Below are positions 54,377 through 64,000 of a stretch of DNA of 64,000 bases, piece after piece. The stretch lies in the NCBI RefSeq assembly GCF_026241095.1, contig NZ_JAPFGB010000019.1:62001-126000 (forward strand). Reading direction: 5' to 3'. This stretch comes from Saccharopolyspora sp. NFXS83 (lineage in GTDB: Bacteria; Actinomycetota; Actinomycetes; Mycobacteriales; Pseudonocardiaceae). Each line of letters opens with the position of its first letter. Position 1 is the stretch's first letter. Made by a program: the position numbers and the translations under genes. Under the pieces are notes generated by a model. The model had not been told where the DNA came from and made no database searches. It saw nothing but the letters and a program-made list of their open reading frames with translations.

Positions 54377-55633
54377 TCAGCCCGCGACGGCGGCGGCCAC
54401 CGCCTCCGACCACAGGCCCACGGCGTCGTCGACCTGCTGGGAGTCGACGATCAGCGGCGGGATCATCCGCACCACGTTGCCCGCGGGCCCGCAGGTCAGC
54501 AGCAGCAGGCCGCGTTCGGCGGCGGCGGCGTGCGCGCGGGCGGCGGTCGCGCCGTCCGGGGTCCCTTCGGGGGTGGTGAACTCGTTGCCGACCATGAGGC
54601 CCCGGCCGCGGACCTCACCGATCACGGGGTGTTCGGCGGCGACCTTGCGCAGCCCTTCCTGCAGCCGTGCGCCCTGCTCGGCGGCGTTGTCGACGAGGTT
54701 CTCGTCGCGCACCACGTCGAGGGTGGCCAGTGCCGCGGCGGCGGCCACGGCGTTGCCCCCGTAGGTGCCGCCCTGCGAACCGGGCCAGGCCTTGCTCATC
54801 AGCGCGCTGGAGGCGGCGATGCCGGAGATCGGGAAACCACTGGCGAGCCCCTTGGCGGTGATGAGGATGTCGGGTGTGATGGCGGAGTGCTGGTGTCCCC
54901 AGAACTTCCCGGTGCGCCCCACCCCGGTCTGCACCTCGTCGGCGATGAGCAGGATGCCGTGGCGGTCGGCGCGTTCGCGCAGCCCTTCCAGGAACGACGC
55001 GGGCGCTGGGATGTAGCCGCCCTCGCCGAGGACCGGTTCGACGATGACCGCGGCGGTGTCCTTCGGGGAGGTGACCGTCAGCAGCAGCTGGTCCAGTTCG
55101 GCCAGCGCGAAGCGCACCGCTTCGGCTTCCGACCAGCCGTGGCGGTAGGTCTCGGGGAACGGGGTGAACGCCACGCCCGGCATCATCGGCCCGATCCCGG
55201 CGCGCACCTTCACACCCGAGGTCGTCAGGGCCCCGGCGCCCATGGTGCGGCCGTGGAAGCCGCCTTGGAAGGCGACGATGGTCTGCCGCCCGGTGGCGTG
55301 GCGCGCCAGCCGCACCGACGCCTCCACCGCTTCGCTGCCGGAGTTGACGTAGAACATGCGGTCCAGGCCCGCGGGCAGGACGTCGCCGAGCCGTTCGGTG
55401 AGCTGGAGTAGCGGCCGGTGCATGACTGTCGTGTACTGGCCGTGGATCAGGGTCCCCACCTGGCGCTGCGCGGCTTCCACCACGCGCGGGTGGCAGTGTC
55501 CGGTGCTGGTCACCCCGATACCGGCGGTGAAGTCGAGGTAGCGGCGTTCGTCCTCGTCGTAGAGGTAGACGCCCTGTCCGCGGGCGGCCAGCACAGGTGT
55601 CGCCTGCTGCAACACCGGCGAGAGCTCAGCCAT
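54377..55633 (-). CDS. Class III PLP aminotransferase (4-aminobutyrate type)
   Basis: A 418-residue PLP-dependent transaminase of subgroup III. Motifs: YLDFTAGIGVTSTGHCHP, NSGSEAVEASVRLAR for phosphate binding, ILLIADEVQTGVGRTGKFW, and the Schiff-base lysine in LITAKGLASGFP. The closest functional class is 4-aminobutyrate or similar omega-amino acid aminotransferases. TTGGAGTCGAAC precedes ATG 55633. It is divergent from an aldehyde dehydrogenase; a shared operator at 55667 indicates that the pair degrades an omega-amino acid via its semialdehyde. GABA is likely but a related amine is possible. Confidence 0.9.
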   Translation of the reverse strand: MAELSPVLQQATPVLAARGQGVYLYDEDERRYLDFTAGIGVTSTGHCHPRVVEAAQRQVGTLIHGQYTTVMHRPLLQLTERLGDVLPAGLDRMFYVNSGSEAVEASVRLARHATGRQTIVAFQGGFHGRTMGAGALTTSGVKVRAGIGPMMPGVAFTPFPETYRHGWSEAEAVRFALAELDQLLLTVTSPKDTAAVIVEPVLGEGGYIPAPASFLEGLRERADRHGILLIADEVQTGVGRTGKFWGHQHSAITPDILITAKGLASGFPISGIAASSALMSKAWPGSQGGTYGGNAVAAAAALATLDVVRDENLVDNAAEQGARLQEGLRKVAAEHPVIGEVRGRGLMVGNEFTTPEGTPDGATAARAHAAAAERGLLLLTCGPAGNVVRMIPPLIVDSQQVDDAVGLWSEAVAAAVAG

Positions 55634-55666: not shown

Positions 55667-55680
55667 GATTGTTGACAATC
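55667..55680. promoter_or_regulatory. GntR-type operator, site A
   Basis: GATTGTTGACAATC (arms GATTGT and ACAATC) lies between the divergent aminotransferase and aldehyde dehydrogenase genes. The same 14 bases occur at 63049 and a 12-base variant at 61521. A TTGACA hexamer inside the site (55672-55677) may be the -35 box for the aldehyde dehydrogenase. Confidence 0.75.
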
Positions 55681-55747
55681 GCGTGTGACATGCAACCATC
55701 ACGGCTGCGTCCTGTCCACCCGCCGACACGGAAGGCCCGCTGAACCG

Positions 55748-57241
55748 ATGAGCATCACGAGCAGCTCCCCCGCAGGCACCGAGTCCGAAGAGGCCCGCGT
55801 CGTCGACGCAGCCCCCAAGCAGCTGCTCATCGGCGGCAAGTGGCGAGCGGCCACCGGTGACCGCACCTACGAGGTCGAAGACCCCTCCACCGGTCGCGCG
55901 TTGTGCTCGGTCGCCGACGCCACCCCCGAGGACGGGCTCGCCGCCCTCGCCGCCGCCCACGAAGCCCAGGCGTCCTGGGCCAAGCACCCGCCGCGCGAAC
56001 GCGGCGAGATCCTGCGCCGCGCCTACGAGCTGATCCAGCAGCGCCACGAGGACCTGGCGCTGCTGATGACCCTGGAGATGGGCAAGCCGCTGCCGGAGGC
56101 GCGCGGCGAGGTCACCTACGCCTCGGAGTTCTTCCGCTGGTTCGCCGAAGAGGCCGTGCGCATCGGCGGCGACTACGCCGTGGCCCCCAGCGGCTCCGGC
56201 CGCTTCCTGGTCACCCAGCAGCCGGTGGGCCCCACGCTGCTGATCACGCCGTGGAACTTCCCGATGGCGATGGGAACCCGCAAGATCGGCCCGGCCATCG
56301 CCGCGGGCTGCACGTCGGTGATCAAACCCGCCCACCAGACGCCGCTGTCGATGCTGGCGCTGGCGGAGATCCTCCAGGAGGCGGGCCTGCCCGACGGGGT
56401 CCTCAACGTGGTCACCGCGGTCGGCGCGGGCTCGGTGATGGAACCGATGATCCGCGACGGGCGCGCCCGCAAGCTGTCGTTCACCGGCTCGACGTCGGTG
56501 GGCCGCAAGCTCATCGAGCAGTCCGCCGAGCAGGTCCTCAACGTGTCCATGGAACTCGGCGGCAACGCCCCGTTCCTGGTGTTCGCCGACGCCGACCTCG
56601 ACGTGGCCGTGGACGGCGCGATGCAGGCCAAGATGCGCAACATCGGTGAGGCCTGCACCGCCGCCAACCGGTTCTACGTGCACGAAGACGTCGCCGAGGA
56701 GTTCTCCCGCAAGCTCGCCGACCGGATGGGGGCGCTGCGCATCGGCCGCGGCGTCCGCGACGACGTGGAGGTCGGGCCGCTGATCGACTCCACCCAGCTG
56801 GGCAAGGTCGACGAGCTCGTCACCGACGCCGTGGGCCGCGGCGCGGAGGTCGTCGTCGGCGGCGCGGTCCACGGCGGCGAGGGCTACTTCTACCCGCCGA
56901 CGGTCCTCAAGAACGTGCCGGCCGAGGCCCGGATGACCCGCGAGGAGATCTTCGGGCCCGTCGCGCCGATCAGCACCTTCACCGCCGAGCAGACCGCCAT
57001 CGACGAGGCCAACAACACCGAGTACGGGCTGGTGGCCTACGTCTACACCCAGGACCTGCACCGGGCGCTGCGCGTGTCCGAAGCGCTGGAGAGCGGCATG
57101 ATCGGCCTCAACCAGGGCGTGGTGAGCAACCCGGCGGCCCCGTTCGGCGGGGTGAAGGCCTCCGGCCTGGGCCGGGAGGGCGGCAAGGTCGGCATCAACG
57201 AGTTCCTGGAGACCAAGTACATCGCCATCGGCGGCCTGTGA
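55748..57241 (+). CDS. NAD(P)-dependent aldehyde dehydrogenase (succinate-semialdehyde type)
   Basis: A 497-residue ALDH. Motifs seen are FTGSTSVG in the cofactor site, the catalytic glutamate E269 in SMELGGNAP and the catalytic cysteine C303 in GEACTAANRF; the usual residue before this cysteine is Gln-x-Cys or Gln-Thr-Cys, here Glu-Ala-Cys. TPWNFPMAMGTRKI is typical of the succinate-semialdehyde dehydrogenase branch. It is divergent from a GABA-type aminotransferase gene and shares its GntR operator, so together they should convert an omega-amino acid to a dicarboxylate. GGAAGG precedes ATG 55748 at a slightly long distance. Confidence 0.92.
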   Translation: MSITSSSPAGTESEEARVVDAAPKQLLIGGKWRAATGDRTYEVEDPSTGRALCSVADATPEDGLAALAAAHEAQASWAKHPPRERGEILRRAYELIQQRHEDLALLMTLEMGKPLPEARGEVTYASEFFRWFAEEAVRIGGDYAVAPSGSGRFLVTQQPVGPTLLITPWNFPMAMGTRKIGPAIAAGCTSVIKPAHQTPLSMLALAEILQEAGLPDGVLNVVTAVGAGSVMEPMIRDGRARKLSFTGSTSVGRKLIEQSAEQVLNVSMELGGNAPFLVFADADLDVAVDGAMQAKMRNIGEACTAANRFYVHEDVAEEFSRKLADRMGALRIGRGVRDDVEVGPLIDSTQLGKVDELVTDAVGRGAEVVVGGAVHGGEGYFYPPTVLKNVPAEARMTREEIFGPVAPISTFTAEQTAIDEANNTEYGLVAYVYTQDLHRALRVSEALESGMIGLNQGVVSNPAAPFGGVKASGLGREGGKVGINEFLETKYIAIGGL

Positions 57242-57258
57242 TCGCCTGAAACCCCCGG

Positions 57259-57296
57259 GCAGTGCCCCGCGCGTCCCTGCGAGCGCGGGGCACTGC
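57259..57296 (+). terminator. Hairpin terminator after the aldehyde dehydrogenase
   Basis: GCAGTGCCCCGCGC (57259-57272) pairs perfectly with GCGCGGGGCACTGC (57283-57296) around a 10-base loop. It begins 18 bases after the aldehyde dehydrogenase stop. Confidence 0.85.
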
Positions 57297-57363
57297 GCTG
57301 TCCAGCGCCTCGTCGCGGCGACCGGTCTCGGCGCGTGCGGGCGCGGCTACGGTGGAGGCAGCC

Positions 57364-58131
57364 ATGGACCACCGGACCGCGTCGCGCCACTACCGGGCGC
57401 TCCTCGACGACCACCTGCGCGCGCCCGCACCGCGGTCCGCCGCCCGCGCCGCGTCGCTGTTCACCGAGCCCGTCCGCACGGCCTTCGCCACCGAGCGCGC
57501 CGAGCTGTCCACGATCGAAGGGATGTTGTGGGCCACGTGGCGGCCGGTGGTGCAGGCGGCCCGCTGCTCACGCGCCGCGCAGCGCGACCTGGTGGACCTG
57601 CTGGACGAGATCCGAGACAGCCGGGCCCTCACCCGCGACGACGGGGACCGGTGCGTCATCTGGGGTGAGCAGGTGGTGTTCACCGACCTGCCGTGCTTCG
57701 GCGCGCAACTGCGCGAGGCCTGGGACCTCGACGAGCCGGGCTCCTCGGAGCAGGTGAACCTCAACGCCTTCGCCGCGCGGCTGACCGCGGCCGGCATCGA
57801 CTTCTCCCGCTTCGCGATCTGGACGCTGCGCGAACACCTCGAGGACACCACCGCCGCAGAAGACCTGGGCGCGGTGCTGCCGTGGATGCGGCACTGCGGG
57901 CCGACGCCGGCCCGGCTGTGCCTGCGGCCAGGCCGGCAGGAGCAGGACCGGGGCCCGGCACGCGTGGGGCCGCTGGGCAGGGCCGGCGACCTGGGCGCAG
58001 GAGGGTTCACCCCGCAACGGTGGGTGTTCTGGCACGGCAGGCTCACCGAGCTGGCCACCGGACACGACGCGGTCGCCCACCAAGCGCGCACGGCCCTGCA
58101 GCACATGCCCGCGTTGGAGAGCACCACCTGA
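57364..58131 (+). CDS. Hypothetical protein, DUF3632-like
   Basis: A 255-residue cytosolic protein without a known function. The middle segment VNLNAFAARLTAAGIDFSRFAIW followed by TLREHLEDT (written in two parts) resembles DUF3632, a family better known in fungi, and the C-terminal part contains VFWHGRLTEL. GGTGGAGGCAGCC precedes ATG 57364. It lies between a terminator and a pseudogene and appears monocistronic. The DUF3632 assignment is my recollection of the family pattern and moderately secure. Confidence 0.6.
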   Translation: MDHRTASRHYRALLDDHLRAPAPRSAARAASLFTEPVRTAFATERAELSTIEGMLWATWRPVVQAARCSRAAQRDLVDLLDEIRDSRALTRDDGDRCVIWGEQVVFTDLPCFGAQLREAWDLDEPGSSEQVNLNAFAARLTAAGIDFSRFAIWTLREHLEDTTAAEDLGAVLPWMRHCGPTPARLCLRPGRQEQDRGPARVGPLGRAGDLGAGGFTPQRWVFWHGRLTELATGHDAVAHQARTALQHMPALESTT

Positions 58132-58149
58132 CCCCGCCACCGGTGCGCG

Positions 58150-58500
58150 CTTACGCGCCCGGCGCCCTGCTCGTCGGCCGCCGGGATCAGGGGCAGCAGC
58201 ATGTGCGGGCGCTGGTCGCCGCGGCCGTGCAGGGCAACGCCGCACGTCGCGGTCACCGGGCAGTTCGTGCCAGAACGGTCCGCTGCCCCGCACTCCCCTC
58301 GGGCCGGGCGGCAGCTGGTGGGTGTGGTCCTGGCCGCGCACCGACACCCCGAGGCGGTGATCAGGCGCCACGACGATCGGCAGCGGCCAGATCTCCACAT
58401 CGGCCTTCCAGACCGGCCGGGCCCTGGAGGAATCCTTCGCCGCGTGATCGGCCTCCTGACGTGGTTCCACCACATCGCACGAGCACCGCTTCCGGTGGCG
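58150..58500 (-). pseudogene. C-terminal remnant of a CocE/NonD hydrolase
   Basis: Minus-strand translation of about 58255-58445 gives RPVWKADVEIWPLPIVVAPD, then HRLGVSVRGQDHTHQLP and GSGPFWHEL, the jelly-roll C-terminal part of CocE/NonD (X-Pro dipeptidyl-peptidase C-like) hydrolases. After PGDR at about 58250 the frame is lost; the next frame carries TCGVALHGRGDQRPHMLLPLIP, the usual family ending. No catalytic N-terminal domain is present upstream. The family pattern spread across two frames shows a degraded gene fragment of about 110 codons. Confidence 0.78.
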
Positions 58501-58697
58501 GGTCGTGGTTGTCGGGTGGTGGGGGTGGGTAGTCCACCGGCGGTTCGGGCGCGCGTTATCACCATGTGGAGCGCCGATTGCTCCAGACGGTCGCACGCGA
58601 TCGAATCGGCGCAGGGGCGCACGACGCGGTGCGCCTGATCCGCACCCCGCCACGTCGCCGTCCTCGTGCGGCGAGGGCACGCCAGGAGGGACGTTTG

Positions 58698-59846
58698 ATG
58701 ACCGAGACATCCACAGCGCTGCGCACGATGATCTCCCCCGGCCGCTACGTGCAGGGCCGCGGCGCGCTCGACTCGCTGGGCTCGTACGTGGCGAAGCTGG
58801 GTGAGCGGCCGTTGGTGCTGGCCGATGACGTGGTGCGCGGACTGACCGAGTCCACGATCACCCGGTCCTTCGGGGACGCGGGGCTGCCGGTGGTGTTCGA
58901 GCGGTTCAACGGGGTGCCCACGGCCGCCGAGAGCCGCCGGGTCGCCGGGGTGCTGCGCGAGCAGGGCTGCGACGTCATCGTCGGTGTCGGTGGCGGCGCG
59001 CCCATCGACACCGCGAAGGCCGCCGCCGACGACACCGGGCTGCCGGTGGCCAGCGTGCCGACGGTGGCCTCCACCGATGCGCCCTGCTCGGCGCTGTCGG
59101 TGGTCTACACCGAGCAGGGCGCGTTCGAGTCGTACCGGTTCTACAGCAGCAACCCGCAGCTGGTGCTGGTCGACACGCTGCTGGCGGCGGGTGCCCCGGC
59201 GCGTTTCCTCGTCGCCGGGGTCGGGGACGCGCTGGCCACCTGGATCGAGGCCCGCGCCGTGGAGCAGTCCAACGCCGCCACGATGGCCGGTGGCGCCGCG
59301 ACCCGCGCGGGGCGGGCGTTGGCGAAGCTGTCCTGGGACATCCTGTGGGAATCGGCGATTCCCGCGGTGCGCGCGGTCGAGCACGGCATCGTGACCCCGG
59401 CGGTGGAGGCGGTGGTGGAGGCCAACACGCTGCTGTCGGGGCTGGGTTTCGAATCCGGGGGGCTCGCCGCGGCGCACGCCGTGCACGACGGGCTCACCGC
59501 TGTGGACCACACCCACGGTCTCGCCCACGGCCAGAAGGTCAACATCGGTTCGATCACGCAGCTGATCCTGGAGGGCCGCCCGGCGCGCGAGATCCACGAC
59601 TTCATCGAGTTCACGACCCGCGTGGGCCTGCCCACCACGTTGACCGAAGCCGGTTTGGGCGACGTCGAGGACTCGGTGCTGCGCACCGTCGCCGAGGCCG
59701 CGACGGCCCCGGCCGAGACCATCCACAACCTGCCGTTCCCGGTGACCGTGGACGCCGTCGTCGACGCCCTCAAGGCCGTGGAGGTCACCGGCCGCGCGGT
59801 GCGCGCCGAGGCGGGGCTGCCCGAGCCGGTCGCACCCGCTCACTGA
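58698..59846 (+). CDS. Iron-containing alcohol dehydrogenase, glycerol-dehydrogenase-like
   Basis: A 382-residue dehydrogenase of the group III metal-dependent family. Features: the NAD-binding VGVGGGAPIDTAKAAAD, VPTVASTDAPCSALSVVY, and metal ligands in VGDALATW (Asp) and in AAHAVHDGL and HTHGLAHGQKV (His), matching glycerol dehydrogenase GldA-like enzymes. It probably oxidises a polyol or a hydroxyacid. CAGGAGGGACG precedes ATG. An inverted repeat TGGAGC/GCTCCA at 58567-58585 lies upstream and may be an operator. It sits in the second island but has no copy of the GntR palindrome. Confidence 0.9.
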   Translation: MTETSTALRTMISPGRYVQGRGALDSLGSYVAKLGERPLVLADDVVRGLTESTITRSFGDAGLPVVFERFNGVPTAAESRRVAGVLREQGCDVIVGVGGGAPIDTAKAAADDTGLPVASVPTVASTDAPCSALSVVYTEQGAFESYRFYSSNPQLVLVDTLLAAGAPARFLVAGVGDALATWIEARAVEQSNAATMAGGAATRAGRALAKLSWDILWESAIPAVRAVEHGIVTPAVEAVVEANTLLSGLGFESGGLAAAHAVHDGLTAVDHTHGLAHGQKVNIGSITQLILEGRPAREIHDFIEFTTRVGLPTTLTEAGLGDVEDSVLRTVAEAATAPAETIHNLPFPVTVDAVVDALKAVEVTGRAVRAEAGLPEPVAPAH

Positions 59847-59852
59847 TCACCG

Positions 59853-59919
59853 AAGGCCTGGTGCGCGGAGAACACCGCGGCCGATCTCGGTCCGCGATGA
59901 TCACAGCGCACCAGGCCTT
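59853..59919. terminator. Bidirectional branched terminator
   Basis: AAGGCCTGGTGCGC (59853-59866) pairs perfectly with GCGCACCAGGCCTT (59906-59919), and a smaller CGCGG/CCGCG hairpin lies within the loop. It separates the convergent alcohol dehydrogenase and GntR genes. Confidence 0.8.
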
Positions 59920-59939
59920 GGTGCCGGTTCGGGTTCGGG

Positions 59940-60653
59940 TCAGGTGACGGGGTCGGCCTCCGACAGCAGCGGCGTGAACGCGTTGAGGCGTTCCAGCGCA
60001 TCGTTCATGTGCGCTTCCAGCCGCGACAGCAGCAGCGCCTCGTCACCGGACTCGATGGCGTCGACCAGGCCGCTGTGCTCGTCGACGAGGGTCTGCGGGT
60101 CGGCGGTGTACTTGTCCTGCAGCGCGGTCAGGCACATCCGCTTCTCCACCAGCAGCGTCTGCGCCATCCGCTGCAGGCGGGGGCTGCCGGACACGCGCAC
60201 CAGGGTTTCGTGGAACTCCTGGTCGGCGTCGCTGAGCTCGATCGCGTCGCCGCGGCCCGCTGCCGAGACGATGCGGGCCTGGGCCGCGGTCAGTTCCGCG
60301 ACCGCCTCCACCCGGTGGTGGCGGATGATGCGTTCGCACGCGGCGCGTTCCACCGCCAGTCGCGCCAGGTAGATGTCGGTGACGTCGTCGGCGTCGAGCG
60401 TCGTCACGAACAATCCGCGGTGTGGTTCGCTGTGCAGCAGCCCTTCCTGCACGAGCCGCTGCATCGCCTCCCGCAGCGGCCCGCGGCTCACCCCGAGCCG
60501 CGACGCCAGTTCGGCCTCACCCATCTGGCTGCCCGGCGGCAGCGACCCGTACATGATCGCCGACCGCAGCTGGTCGGCCACGATCGCGGCGGTCGATTTC
60601 CGCTGCACCGGCTCTAACTCGCCGTGCTGGTTCTGCTCGTCGACTCCGAGCAC
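59940..60653 (-). CDS. GntR-family regulator (FCD type)
   Basis: A 237-residue regulator. The winged helix covers about 18-85 (AAIVADQLRSAIMYGSLPPG, then ASRLGVSRGPLREAMQRLVQEG), and the helical FCD domain about 90-225 carries the histidine and aspartate pattern (DADQEFHETLVRVSG, DEHSGLVDAIESGD, EAHMNDALE) that binds a metal and a carboxylate ligand. The start is debatable: GAGGAG directly abuts ATG 60662, so GTG 60653 with 9-base spacing is used. It follows the racemase-like gene at 60678 and probably controls the GATTGTTGACAATC family of sites, including its own promoter. Confidence 0.9.
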   Translation of the reverse strand: MLGVDEQNQHGELEPVQRKSTAAIVADQLRSAIMYGSLPPGSQMGEAELASRLGVSRGPLREAMQRLVQEGLLHSEPHRGLFVTTLDADDVTDIYLARLAVERAACERIIRHHRVEAVAELTAAQARIVSAAGRGDAIELSDADQEFHETLVRVSGSPRLQRMAQTLLVEKRMCLTALQDKYTADPQTLVDEHSGLVDAIESGDEALLLSRLEAHMNDALERLNAFTPLLSEADPVT

Positions 60654-60677
60654 CGACACCATCTCCTCATCGAGTTC

Positions 60678-61436
60678 TCAGCGCGGGGCGGCTCCCCCGA
60701 GCTCACCCCTGTCCGGGCCGGCCTGCCGGAACAGCGCGCCCAGGCCCTCGTGCGGTCCCGGGTCACCGGCCAGCCGAAGCACTTCCCACGCGCTGACCTG
60801 GTTGGCGGTCAGCACCGGTTTGCCCAGGCGCTGCTCCAGCTCGTCGAGCCACGCCGCGGTGTGCAGCGCGGTGTCGGGCATCAGCAGTGCCTGCGCGGTC
60901 GGATCGTCGTTGGCCGCGGCGAAATCCAGCACCTGTTCGCGGGTCAACGTGCCGACCTCCGCGGCGGTGACGATGCCGCGGCTGGACAACCTGGTCACCT
61001 CGATACCGCCGTGGGCCAGGAAATCGGCGAACCGGTCGGCCACGTCGGCCGGATAGGTCGCCGCGACCGCCACCCGGTCCAGCCCGAGGCGCGCCGCGGC
61101 GTGCACGAACGCGAACGACGTGCTCGACGTCGCCAGACCGGTGACGGCTTGCAACTTCTCGACCTGGTCGCGGGCGCCTTCCCAGCCGAAGACGAAGCTG
61201 CCGCTGGTGCACGCCCAGATCACGGCCTGCACGCCGCGGGTCAGCAGTTCACGGGCCCCTTCGGCGAGGACCTCGGCGGAACCGACGTCGAGCAGCGCGT
61301 CCACCCGATGCGCGTCCTCCCGCATCAAGGTGTGCACCAGCGGCAACGCGATCCCCCCGCCGAGCAGGCGTTCCAGGGCCGGGTAATCGTCTTCGGCGCT
61401 GTATCCGGGGTAGAGAATCCCTGCGGTGATCGACAC
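60678..61436 (-). CDS. Asp/Glu racemase-fold protein with a single catalytic cysteine
   Basis: A 252-residue protein of the Asp/Glu/hydantoin racemase superfamily, which includes maleate isomerase and arylmalonate decarboxylase. The first active-site cysteine is C76 in WACTSGSF. The second cysteine position, normally in a CTN motif, reads MPDTALHT with D188, so a classical two-base racemase is unlikely. GGAGGGAG precedes the GTG start. The operator variant at 61521 lies 85 bases upstream, and the GntR gene follows after 15 bases, so the two probably form an autoregulated unit. Confidence 0.85.
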   Translation of the reverse strand: MSITAGILYPGYSAEDDYPALERLLGGGIALPLVHTLMREDAHRVDALLDVGSAEVLAEGARELLTRGVQAVIWACTSGSFVFGWEGARDQVEKLQAVTGLATSSTSFAFVHAAARLGLDRVAVAATYPADVADRFADFLAHGGIEVTRLSSRGIVTAAEVGTLTREQVLDFAAANDDPTAQALLMPDTALHTAAWLDELEQRLGKPVLTANQVSAWEVLRLAGDPGPHEGLGALFRQAGPDRGELGGAAPR

Positions 61437-61520
61437 CGGCAGCTCCCTCCTTGATTCGTTCCCGCGACCCGCCGTGCGAATCGGGGTTGCGGGGGGCGAA
61501 CGACACCGGACCGGCGGTCA

Positions 61521-61532
61521 ATTGTCGACAAT
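61521..61532. promoter_or_regulatory. GntR-type operator, site B (variant)
   Basis: ATTGTCGACAAT is a perfect 12-base palindrome in the 180-base gap upstream of the racemase-like/GntR unit. It shares ATTGT-NN-ACAAT with the sites at 55667 and 63049 and extends to a partial GGT/ACC dyad. Confidence 0.7.
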
Positions 61533-61618
61533 GTTACCGCACGGTTCGGTGCCGCCCGCAGTGGCGGACATGCTTTCGTAATTCGATCGACACGCTCACG
61601 GCGTGCGAACGGCCCAGT

Positions 61619-62380
61619 TCAGGCGGCCGGAACGTCGAACGCTCGCACCAGCCGCTGCTGCGGGGCCACCGCCGGTAACCCCATCGTGCGCAGCGCCGCC
61701 CACATCGTGACCTGATTCGCCGTGAGCACCGGCTTGCCCAATTCCTGCTCCAGCGGGCCGATGATGTCGTAGGTCGGCAGATTCGTGCAGCTGATGAACA
61801 TCGCCTCCGCGTCCGGGCGGTCCGCCGAACGCACGATGTCGACGACCTGACGGTAATCGACCTTCCAAATCCGGCCCAGCAGGCCCAACCCCACGCTGGT
61901 GACCACCTCGACGTCGTGCTCACCGAGGAAACCCACCAGCCGCTCGGTCACGTTCTCCACGTACGGCGTCGCGATCGCCACCCGCCGCACCCCGAGCACC
62001 TCCAGCGCCTCGACCAGCGCACCCGAGGTCGTCACCGCCGCCGGGGCACCGGCCTCCCGCATCACCGTGGTCAGGTTGCGCTCCCCGGCCGCGCCGTCGA
62101 CGAAACTGCCCGACGCGCACGCGTAGGCCACCACCTCCGGCTCCGGCGAGAGCAGGTCGCGCGTGGCGCTGTGCACCGCGGCCTCGTCCGAGATCAGCGA
62201 CGCCATCTCCACGGTCATCGGGACCGGCACGAACGCCGTGCGCGTCACGTACAACGTCACGTTCTCCGGCGTCCAGCGCCACAACTCGCGATCCATCGCC
62301 AGGTCGAACGGCGCGACCACACCCACTCCGCGCTGCGGGGCGGGACCGGACACCGACCCCATGAAGTCCTCCGGCGCCAT
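61619..62380 (-). CDS. Asp/Glu racemase/maleate isomerase-like protein with two cysteines
   Basis: A 253-residue member of the same superfamily as the neighbour at 60678. Both active-site cysteines are present: C88 in AYACASGSF and C198 in FISCTNLPTYD. This pair fits maleate cis-trans isomerase and racemases. Gene order DUF3830 then this gene, with overlap, suggests one transcript from the operator at 63049. ATG 62380 has GGGGG eight bases upstream; a TTG at 62398 overlapping the previous stop is the alternative. With the neighbour it may handle two isomers of one acid (inference). Confidence 0.88.
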   Translation of the reverse strand: MAPEDFMGSVSGPAPQRGVGVVAPFDLAMDRELWRWTPENVTLYVTRTAFVPVPMTVEMASLISDEAAVHSATRDLLSPEPEVVAYACASGSFVDGAAGERNLTTVMREAGAPAAVTTSGALVEALEVLGVRRVAIATPYVENVTERLVGFLGEHDVEVVTSVGLGLLGRIWKVDYRQVVDIVRSADRPDAEAMFISCTNLPTYDIIGPLEQELGKPVLTANQVTMWAALRTMGLPAVAPQQRLVRAFDVPAA

Positions 62381-62394
62381 GCCGCGACCCCCGG

Positions 62395-62889
62395 TCAACC
62401 GGAGTGGCGTTCGTAGCGCAACCGCTCACCGACGCTGCCCGAACGCCACACGTCGTTGCAGGCCTCCGCGAACGCGCCGAGGTTGTCCACGATCGACCCG
62501 TACACGTTGCCCGGCACCCAGCCCACATCGCCGTTGAGCAGCAGGTTGTTGCGCCCGTAGAAGATCGCCAGGTCGATCACGCCCGGCAGGGCCTCGATGT
62601 CCTTCTCCTCCTTGAACCCGCGGTCGAGCATCCCGCTGTCGAAGGAGAAGTACACGAGGTCACCGGGGATCGGCGTCACCGTCGGGTTCTCCTGGCCCGG
62701 TTCCCGCTCGGCGAACCGGGGGACCATGGTGTAGATCTCGTTGCGCGCGTACTTCGCGTGATGCACCGGCCCGGCCTGCGGCAACGACTGCCACACGGCC
62801 TCGCAGGTGCGGGGGGCGTCCTTGTCCAGCAACTCCGCCACGCAGGACACGCCACGCTTCTCCAGCGTGATCGACAGGTACCTGGGCAT
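62395..62889 (-). CDS. DUF3830 family protein
   Basis: A 164-residue protein of the DUF3830 family, whose fold is thought to be cyclophilin-like. Motifs: ITLEKRGVSCVAELLDKDAP, CEAVWQSLPQAGPVHHAKYA, VTPIPGDLVYFSFD and IDLAIFYGRNNLL. DUF3830 genes are often found beside racemase-like, amidase and hydroxyacid dehydrogenase genes in catabolic clusters, but no reaction is established. The ATG at 62889 has only a weak site (GGAAC). It is first gene of the minus-strand unit, divergent from a hydroxyacid dehydrogenase with an operator between. Confidence 0.85.
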   Translation of the reverse strand: MPRYLSITLEKRGVSCVAELLDKDAPRTCEAVWQSLPQAGPVHHAKYARNEIYTMVPRFAEREPGQENPTVTPIPGDLVYFSFDSGMLDRGFKEEKDIEALPGVIDLAIFYGRNNLLLNGDVGWVPGNVYGSIVDNLGAFAEACNDVWRSGSVGERLRYERHSG

Positions 62890-63048
62890 CGTGAAATCCG
62901 TTCCATGAGAGGGCGAGCAGATGTGGATCGGTCTCCGCGGTCTCGGCTCGCGGCCACCAGTGGCCACGCCGTGCCCTGCCCAGGGCCGAAGACCCGCCTC
63001 GCGGACCGGCGCACCGACAGGCGCCGACCCCACCGCGAGATACCTGCG

Positions 63049-63082
63049 GATTGTTGACAATCCTACGAGCGCTTCCTAGCGT
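63049..63082. promoter_or_regulatory. GntR-type operator, site C, with plus-strand promoter
   Basis: GATTGTTGACAATC at 63049-63062 equals site A exactly. Inside it, TTGACA (63054-63059) is followed after 17 bases by TAGCGT (63077-63082), a good sigma-70-like promoter for the dehydrogenase at 63165. A regulator bound here would cover the -35 box. The DUF3830 unit starts in the other direction. Confidence 0.78.
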
Positions 63083-63164
63083 GTCAATCCCCGGCCGCCG
63101 ACAGCCCGGAGATCCACCGCGACGACGCGCGAACCGCTACCCGCCCACCTCCGAAGGCCAGGTC

Positions 63165-64000
63165 ATGACCGACAACACCCCCACCGTCGTCGTCCTCCAC
63201 GGTGGCGACCCGCCACCCGCCATGGACCGCATCGCACGCGTCGCCGAACTCCGCCCCACCACCGAAGACGGCCTCGCCGCCGCACTGCCCGGCGCCGACG
63301 TGCTGTTCGTGTGGGACTTCCGCTCCGACGCCGTCGACGAAGCCTGGCACCACGCCGAAGACCTGCGCTGGGTCCACGCCGCCAGCGCCGGAGTCGACCG
63401 GCTGCTGTTCCCCGCCCTGCTCGACTCCGACGTCGCCCTCACCAACTCCCGCGGCGTCTTCGACGGGCCCATGGCCGAATACGTCCTGGCCACCGTGCTC
63501 GCCTTCGCCAAAGACCTCCACACCAGCGTCCGGCTGCAAGACCAACGGCAATGGCGCCACCGCGAAACCGAACGCATCGCGGGCAAACGCGCCCTCGTCG
63601 TCGGCACCGGCCCCATCGGACGCGCCATCGCAGGCCAGCTGGGCGCCGCCGGACTCCACGTCGAAGGCGCCGGACGCGTCGCCCGCGACCACGACCCCGA
63701 CTTCGGCACCGTGCACGCCTCCGACGAACTGCACGGCGTCCTCGGCGACCACGACTACGTCGTGCTCGCCGCACCCCTGACCGAACAGACCCACGGACTC
63801 ATCGACGCCAAAGCCCTCGCCGAGTTCGCCCCCACCGCACGCCTGATCAACGTCGGCCGCGGCGAACTCGTCGTCCAACCCGACCTCGTCGAAGCACTCG
63901 AAGCCGGACGCCTCGCCGGCGCCGCCCTCGACGTGTTCGACACCGAACCCCTCCCCGAAACCTCCCCCCTGTGGGAGATGCCGAACGTCCTGATCTCCGC
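63165..64000 (+). CDS. D-2-hydroxyacid dehydrogenase (cut by window end)
   Basis: At least 278 residues of a 2-hydroxyacid dehydrogenase, which interconverts a 2-keto acid and a 2-hydroxy acid with NAD(P)H. The Rossmann motif is VGTGPIGRAIAG, the substrate arginine lies in INVGRGELVV, and the catalytic glutamate in DVFDTEPLPETSPLW; the catalytic histidine would follow beyond the window. CCATGGCCGAATACVLATVLA-type dimer helix reads MAEYVLATVLAF. GAAGGCCAGG precedes ATG 63165. It is divergent from the DUF3830 gene and shares its operator, so it belongs to the GntR regulon. Confidence 0.9.
   Translation, partial: MTDNTPTVVVLHGGDPPPAMDRIARVAELRPTTEDGLAAALPGADVLFVWDFRSDAVDEAWHHAEDLRWVHAASAGVDRLLFPALLDSDVALTNSRGVFDGPMAEYVLATVLAFAKDLHTSVRLQDQRQWRHRETERIAGKRALVVGTGPIGRAIAGQLGAAGLHVEGAGRVARDHDPDFGTVHASDELHGVLGDHDYVVLAAPLTEQTHGLIDAKALAEFAPTARLINVGRGELVVQPDLVEALEAGRLAGAALDVFDTEPLPETSPLWEMPNVLIS

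Follow-up and report, generated by a model that had tools for sequence, protein, structure and literature searches.

Gene content and operator sites

The window, a stretch of 64,000 nucleotides from Saccharopolyspora sp. NFXS83 (contig NZ_JAPFGB010000019.1, positions 62,001 to 126,000), carries a gene cluster encoding an aminotransferase, an aldehyde dehydrogenase, two proteins resembling arylmalonate decarboxylase (AMDase) and EutA (racemases 1 and 2), a DUF3830 protein, a hydroxyacid dehydrogenase and a GntR regulator of the FCD type, with three copies of a short palindrome in its intergenic gaps. The features are listed below (window positions, except for the amidase):

54383 to 55633, minus strand: class III aminotransferase (PF00202)
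55667 to 55680, no strand: operator 1, GATTGTTGACAATC, separating the divergent genes of the aminotransferase (start 55633, minus) and the aldehyde dehydrogenase (start 55748, plus)
55748 to 57241, plus strand: aldehyde dehydrogenase, nearest the succinate-semialdehyde type (PF00171; TIGR01780, 565.6 bits, cut-off 646.35)
59940 to 60662, minus strand: FCD-type GntR regulator, proposed repressor (PF00392, PF07729)
60678 to 61436, minus strand: racemase 1, AMDase/EutA-like paralogue with C76 and D188
61521 to 61532, no strand: operator 2, ATTGTCGACAAT, between racemase 2 (ends 61619) and racemase 1-GntR, an autoregulatory position
61619 to 62398, minus strand: racemase 2, AMDase/EutA-like, with both cysteines (C94, C204)
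62395 to 62889, minus strand: DUF3830 protein (PF12903), close to the uncharacterised structure PDB 3kop
63049 to 63062, no strand: operator 3, GATTGTTGACAATC, separating the divergent genes of DUF3830 (start 62889, minus) and the hydroxyacid dehydrogenase (start 63165, plus)
63054 to 63082, plus strand: predicted promoter P2 of the hydroxyacid dehydrogenase, -35 TTGACA within the operator (63054-63059), 17-base spacer, -10 TAGCGT (63077-63082)
63060 to 63087, minus strand: predicted promoter P1 of DUF3830-racemase 2, -35 TTGACA (63087-63082), 16-base spacer, -10 TAGGAT (63065-63060)
63165 to 64000, continuing to 64148 past the window, plus strand: D-2-hydroxyacid dehydrogenase (PF02826)
C11:126145-127581 (locus L007), beyond the window: amidase, its start overlapped by the end of the hydroxyacid dehydrogenase gene

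The original prediction, made from the window alone, had placed the three palindromes at these positions, and all were found there, each in a gap between transcription units. The 14-mer GATTGTTGACAATC is a palindrome save for its two central bases (TG vs. CA). The window has three exact matches to ATTGTYRACAAT, where a first-order Markov model predicts 0.001. A loose scan with ATTGTYGACAAT, allowing up to two mismatches on both strands, gave six matches (shuffle mean 1.65; 4 of 100 shuffles reached six); taken alone, this result is mildly unusual and constitutes weak evidence.

A genome-wide motif scan, suggested in the original prediction, identified five exact ATTGTYRACAAT sites in the 6.9-megabase genome, three of them in the window (0.11 expected from the window composition), and no match to the reversed control pattern. 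The fourth site (C17:19039) precedes a glutamate dehydrogenase gene by about 270-290 bases and had been overlooked, as had the amidase gene beyond the window. Of 12 genomes whose glutamate dehydrogenase orthologue reaches 79% identity or more, 11 have the site upstream of it, and in Georgenia (L068, L070) the glutamate dehydrogenase gene adjoins the GntR gene. The fifth site, ATTGTTAACAAT, precedes a different catabolic cluster with its own GntR (contig C5). Among the orphan sites of relatives, some precede orthologues of the aminotransferase or of glutamate dehydrogenase, and others show no common function by eye.

Conservation of the sites and of the GntR regulator

The GntR protein matches PF00392 (64.7 bits, cut-off 27) and PF07729 (76.8 bits, cut-off 24.3); among NCBIfam models it scores best against Burkholderia PhnR (121.1 bits, below the cut-off of 271.5). 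Residues D147, H151, H196 and H218, which we take to be the Asp/His metal-binding set of the FCD domain, were invariant in 73 of 73 sequences. Orthologues in other loci were called at 40% identity or more over 70% of the length. Forty-two named loci had been found with the GntR protein, and 40 of these carry an orthologue. In all 20 named loci with a complete Saccharopolyspora-type cluster, an exact site was present in each of the three gaps. Nocardia, Georgenia and Mycobacteroides have a rearranged gene order, with sites kept ahead of racemase 2 and between the aldehyde dehydrogenase and aminotransferase genes.

Ninety-eight loci were fetched in total. The loss of the palindrome from orthologous clusters, named in the original prediction as grounds for abandoning it, was looked for in these: 70 of the 72 loci with a GntR orthologue kept at least one exact site. 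The 20 loci of a genus from another order (g95) yielded neither a GntR orthologue (0 of 20) nor a site (0 of 20); a protein beside one of these clusters is IclR-like by eye, with no NCBIfam match at E up to 1e-25. Six other loci lack GntR: L113 (one site), which holds the aminotransferase half, the GntR of that genome being in L112; L079, L081 and L171, with neither GntR nor site; and L146 and L148, which are taken up below. In four Actinopolyspora loci (L057, L058, L059, L080), GntR and one site are accompanied by the aldehyde dehydrogenase alone; the rest of the core is gone from the stretch fetched, possibly leaving a remnant or an arrangement with a different use.

This pattern agrees with the original proposal of one regulon with the linked FCD-type GntR as its likely regulator. 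Judged by the company that site and regulator keep, the sites very probably form a single regulon under GntR, and the linked protein is likely to be what regulates them.

Promoter register

The last two bases of the P1 -10 hexamer (TAGGAT) are the first bases of the operator. The P1 pattern TTGACN-N-TAnnAT running into the operator was found in 52 instances in 51 of 99 loci (window included), either at the DUF3830/hydroxyacid dehydrogenase site or before racemase 2, and its spacer was always 16 bases, though 11-18 were allowed. In all 52 instances a TAnnnT hexamer lay exactly 17 bases past the operator TTGACA, as in P2; the final T of this hexamer is forced by the P1 pattern, the TA is not. 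Both promoters are predictions from sequence, and the loci are related by descent. Since a single operator touches the -10 of P1 and the -35 of P2 in a fixed register, the GntR protein most likely acts as a repressor.

Linkage to ectoine genes

The core shared by relatives consists of two EutA/AMDase-like proteins, DUF3830, the hydroxyacid dehydrogenase and the amidase. This core adjoins the ectoine importer genes EhuBCDA in 21 of the 98 fetched loci, 20 of them from g95, and ectABCD in six. DUF3830 turned up in 54 of the 394 genomes searched across the class; the g95 sample comprised all 20 DUF3830-bearing genomes of that genus among the 54. By similarity, the four Ehu genes were present in 20 of 20 g95 loci, together with DUF3830, the hydroxyacid dehydrogenase and racemase 2 (20 of 20 each), the amidase (19) and racemase 1 (19); in two of these loci all eight Ehu proteins passed the curated models. 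In the window's own family, genome G022 has EhuB, EhuC, EhuD and EhuA, all above the curated cut-offs, preceding the amidase. In mycobacterial locus L073, EctA, EctB, EctC and EctD scored above their cut-offs and stand directly before DUF3830; by similarity, EctABCD was also found in L075, L077, L078, L167 and L168. An EhuC match in L117 was rejected, its best model being a cystine permease.

Plasmids gave a weaker line of evidence. The racemase homologue with the top identity of 40 listed (39.9%) lies on a Sinorhizobium plasmid beside ehuABCD, an aminotransferase and an aldehyde dehydrogenase, the aminotransferase being of the diaminobutyrate type by annotation. A fifth plasmid locus, L130, was left out for want of annotation, and L131 was selected for its eutA annotation. 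A plasmid search with DUF3830 gave five distant matches (26-30% identity), and the two loci opened had unrelated settings.

Co-occurrence was analysed in 120 relatives (GntR at E up to 1e-50, n=53; EctC at E up to 1e-45). EctC was present in 53 of 53 genomes with GntR vs. 9 of 67 without (p 5e-25). With a looser GntR threshold (1e-30) the figures were 54 of 56 vs. 8 of 64, and when each genus of the family was represented by a single genome, 32 had both, none GntR only, four EctC only and ten neither (p 2.5e-7). EctD was found in 50 of 53 vs. 10 of 67, and EhuB above its cut-off in 39 of 53 vs. 6 of 67. Urease, used as the control, was present in 29 of 53 vs. 43 of 67 (p 0.35); it took the place of phenylacetate, which was too common to serve (104 of 120). 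EutD (TIGR02993) scored above its cut-off of 613 bits in none of the 120 genomes, the best match in the window's genome reaching 56.9 bits. Therefore, if the substrate is ectoine, a different ring-opening enzyme would be needed.

Proposed function

Both racemases match PF17645 and have EutA as their highest-scoring NCBIfam model, below its cut-off, which speaks for the ectoine link; racemase 2 also matches AMDase structures such as 3ixm. Among racemase 2 orthologues C94 and C204 are each invariant (84 of 84); racemase 1 orthologues keep C76 (85 of 85) and an Asp (D188) at the position of the second catalytic cysteine (85 of 85). The two proteins might work as a pair. Also invariant are K95, S171 and S195 of the amidase (85 of 85) and R232, E261 and H280 of the hydroxyacid dehydrogenase (89 of 89), presumably the expected catalytic sets. 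The aldehyde dehydrogenase is 46% identical to the Ssd-type enzyme of a Leisingera eut cluster.

The original prediction had assigned the regulon a generic pathway: an isomerisation, a hydroxyacid dehydrogenase, a transaminase and a semialdehyde dehydrogenase. That assignment gave way to another, as the EhuBCDA and EctABCD neighbours and the co-occurrence with ectoine synthase point to breakdown of ectoine/hydroxyectoine; the proposed members were retained, with the amidase and, in one clade, glutamate dehydrogenase added. From these comparisons we infer binding and repression by GntR, the nature of its ligand, the substrate and the reaction of every core enzyme. The GntR/FCD repressor would hold down four transcription units via one operator, ATTGTYRACAAT: DUF3830-racemase 2; hydroxyacid dehydrogenase-amidase; racemase 1-gntR; and the aminotransferase and aldehyde dehydrogenase. 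In the window's clade the distant glutamate dehydrogenase would also be under this operator. At the best-conserved site one bound dimer would shut both divergent promoters, and an inducer would release it. In place of EutA-EutE, the proposed pathway would use the amidase, the hydroxyacid dehydrogenase, DUF3830 and the two EutA-like proteins. Between them, the aminotransferase and aldehyde dehydrogenase would take diaminobutyrate via aspartate semialdehyde to aspartate, with glutamate dehydrogenase handing the amino group back to 2-oxoglutarate. The window's genome has no EhuB, and the cluster there may therefore recycle internal ectoine.

It is quite probable that the substrates are of the ectoine type (ectoine and/or 5-hydroxyectoine); hydroxyectoine alone is less likely, as GntR tracks EctC (53 of 53) better than EctD (50 of 53). 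The explanation as a whole, a GntR-repressed, EutD-independent regulon for ectoine/hydroxyectoine breakdown, we regard as moderately probable. A broader proposal is tentative: Actinomycetota may possess a second, EutD-independent route for ectoine/5-hydroxyectoine, with a new ring-opening enzyme among the amidase, DUF3830 and the Cys/Asp EutA-like paralogue, and this route may be widespread among ectoine producers and controlled, in many of them, by an FCD-type GntR via one operator shared by overlapping divergent promoters. Taken jointly, the two parts of this proposal fall slightly on the doubtful side.

Alternative explanations

Several observations speak against a GntR-controlled breakdown of ectoine. 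On the regulatory side, two GntR loci have no exact site (L070, 4.5 kilobases only, and L076); L146 (three sites) and L148 (one site) have DUF3830 and no GntR in the stretch fetched, though the regulator may be elsewhere in those genomes; and the glutamate dehydrogenase site was absent from all 13 genomes with an orthologue of 65-74% identity. On the enzymatic side, the aminotransferase is only 30% identical to the Leisingera Atf-type enzyme, and EutA (TIGR02990), the best NCBIfam match of both racemases, gave 107.1 and 116.2 bits, far short of its cut-off of 318. Orthologues of the aminotransferase and aldehyde dehydrogenase were found in 0 of 20 g95 loci within the stretches fetched. Two genomes have EutD-like proteins at 326-329 bits (best 328.9), below the cut-off of 613. 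As for the ectoine genes, Ehu was missing from all eight fetched loci of group f31 (8 of 18 genomes fetched), in which GntR and sites are present; EhuB (E up to 1e-40) was found in none of six genomes of the window's genus, its own genome included; nine genomes have EctC without GntR; and the other three of the four plasmid loci opened around racemase homologues contained no ectoine genes. The phenylacetate control was mildly associated with GntR too (51 of 53 vs. 53 of 67, p 0.006), and shared descent therefore contributes to the co-occurrence. Finally, tartrate dehydrogenase (508.3 bits, cut-off 470.4) and sometimes GlcD-like genes join the cluster in L067, L069, L071, L074, L105, L107, L109, L110, L111, L114 and others, which hints at hydroxyacid chemistry outside the proposed pathway.

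As to the regulator, a chance origin of the palindromes was ruled out, its probability being vanishingly small: the weakly unusual loose scan would suit it, but the exact counts in window and genome, the fixed promoter register and the conservation in relatives across families would not. FCD regulators share such motifs, and the palindromes could serve another FCD-type GntR, for example the C5 paralogue, with the linked GntR incidental. The near-identical site that this paralogue has for itself (ATTGTTAACAAT) and the GntR-less L146 and L148 fit this idea. We consider it very unlikely, given that none of the 163 sites in the 98 loci has a central TA step (CA/TG 136, CG 27, TA 0) and that the g95 loci, in which the linked GntR is missing, have no sites (0 of 20).

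As to the substrate, the regulon may be real and act on another compound, a hydroxydicarboxylate or the amide of a hydroxy-amino acid, the ectoine linkage then reflecting a halotolerant life-style and common ancestry. The tartrate dehydrogenase and GlcD-like neighbours would be at home in such a pathway, the amidase and hydroxyacid dehydrogenase belong to general-purpose families with intact catalytic residues, and the lack of EhuB in the window's genus would need no comment. The Ehu genes of g95 and G022, the EctABCD genes of the six mycobacterial loci and the presence of EctC in every GntR genome are hard to explain on these terms, and we hold this alternative to be unlikely. A variant that keeps ectoine chemistry is the salvage, in producers, of endogenous ectoine/hydroxyectoine or N-acetyl-diaminobutyrate rather than import as food: EctC in reverse might open the ring, and the amidase would remove the gamma-acetyl group. 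It draws on the same EctC count, on the missing EhuB and on the lack of EutD above cut-off in 120 genomes; it is opposed by the importers beside the cluster in 21 of 98 loci and by the chemistry, ectoine synthesis being generally regarded as strongly favoured over hydrolysis. We judge this variant rather improbable and retain repression by GntR of a breakdown pathway for ectoine-type substrates as the preferred explanation.

Comparison with known systems

The eutABCDE-atf-ssd/enuR clusters (Sinorhizobium meliloti, Ruegeria pomeroyi, and doeABCD of Halomonas) have enzyme types in common with the cluster described here, namely an EutA-like protein, a class III aminotransferase and an aldehyde dehydrogenase nearest a semialdehyde type; the Ehu importer is present in some eut clusters, as in some relatives' clusters here. 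They differ in EutD (above cut-off in 0 of 120 relatives here), in the two EutA-like paralogues, DUF3830 and GatA-type amidase of the present cluster, and in the regulator: EnuR is MocR-type, whereas the regulator here is an FCD-type GntR, with only 23.7 bits against the EhuR model (cut-off 480). EutB, EutC and EutE were not found among the cluster proteins scanned, no genome-wide search having been made.

With FCD-type GntR regulators whose operators overlap promoters, the window's GntR shares the domain architecture, the Asp/His set and a short inverted-repeat operator. We know of no FCD-type GntR member that regulates ectoine breakdown. Within the superfamily of arylmalonate decarboxylase, maleate isomerase and Asp/Glu racemase, racemase 2 has the two cysteines and racemase 1 does not (Asp); neither reaches the curated NCBIfam cut-off for AMDase or for EutA.

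The available text of a 2018 review confines ectoine consumers, counted by EutD, to Proteobacteria, describes the known ectoine regulator (EnuR) as MocR-type, presumes that EutA inverts the 5-hydroxyl, and lists a hydroxyacid dehydrogenase gene of undefined role in some ectoine clusters (PMC5924519). Gram-positive ectoine clusters were found via EutD and EutB in a 2026 study, which terms them provisional (PMC13188858). As far as the available text goes, these clusters also include predicted ectoine use in Actinomycetota, as here, and differ in having a PucR regulator in most Bacillota examined, where a GntR is found here; the words amidase, racemase, maleate and GntR do not occur in its main text. 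In the part available of a report on Nocardiopsis gilva, ehuABCD lies beside ectD and is raised at high salt, which supports uptake, not breakdown (PMC5884947), and the available text of a paper on ectoine in Streptomyces venezuelae contains no word beginning with ehu, catabol or degrad (PMC13189361). In the literature searched, which mostly excludes subscription journals, no paper was found with the term DUF3830, and none of those listed described this cluster by title or abstract start.

A route without EutD would escape surveys based on EutD as well as those based on EutD and EutB. If the proposal is correct, many ectoine-producing actinobacteria also degrade ectoine, which bears on soil osmolyte turnover and on ectoine production strains; DUF3830 would gain its first pathway, and testable roles would arise for it and for the Cys-to-Asp EutA-like paralogue.

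Neighbouring genes and a paralogous regulon

Two genes sit between the halves of the cluster in the window, encoding a DUF3632 protein (57262-58131) and an iron-containing alcohol dehydrogenase of the glycerol dehydrogenase type (58695-59846). They were discarded as regulon members, being found in 0 and 1 of the 42 named loci respectively (E up to 1e-20).

Contig C5 carries a second, paralogous GntR regulon with ATTGTTAACAAT (C5:96548 and C5:102018; locus L009:6548 and 12018). These two positions were set aside as targets of the linked GntR, being assigned to the paralogous regulon with its central TA step. The genes of the C5 cluster, labelled by eye, encode a PrpF-like protein, two amidohydrolases, an aldolase-like protein, a major facilitator superfamily transporter and GntR, and probably serve aromatic ring-cleavage chemistry.

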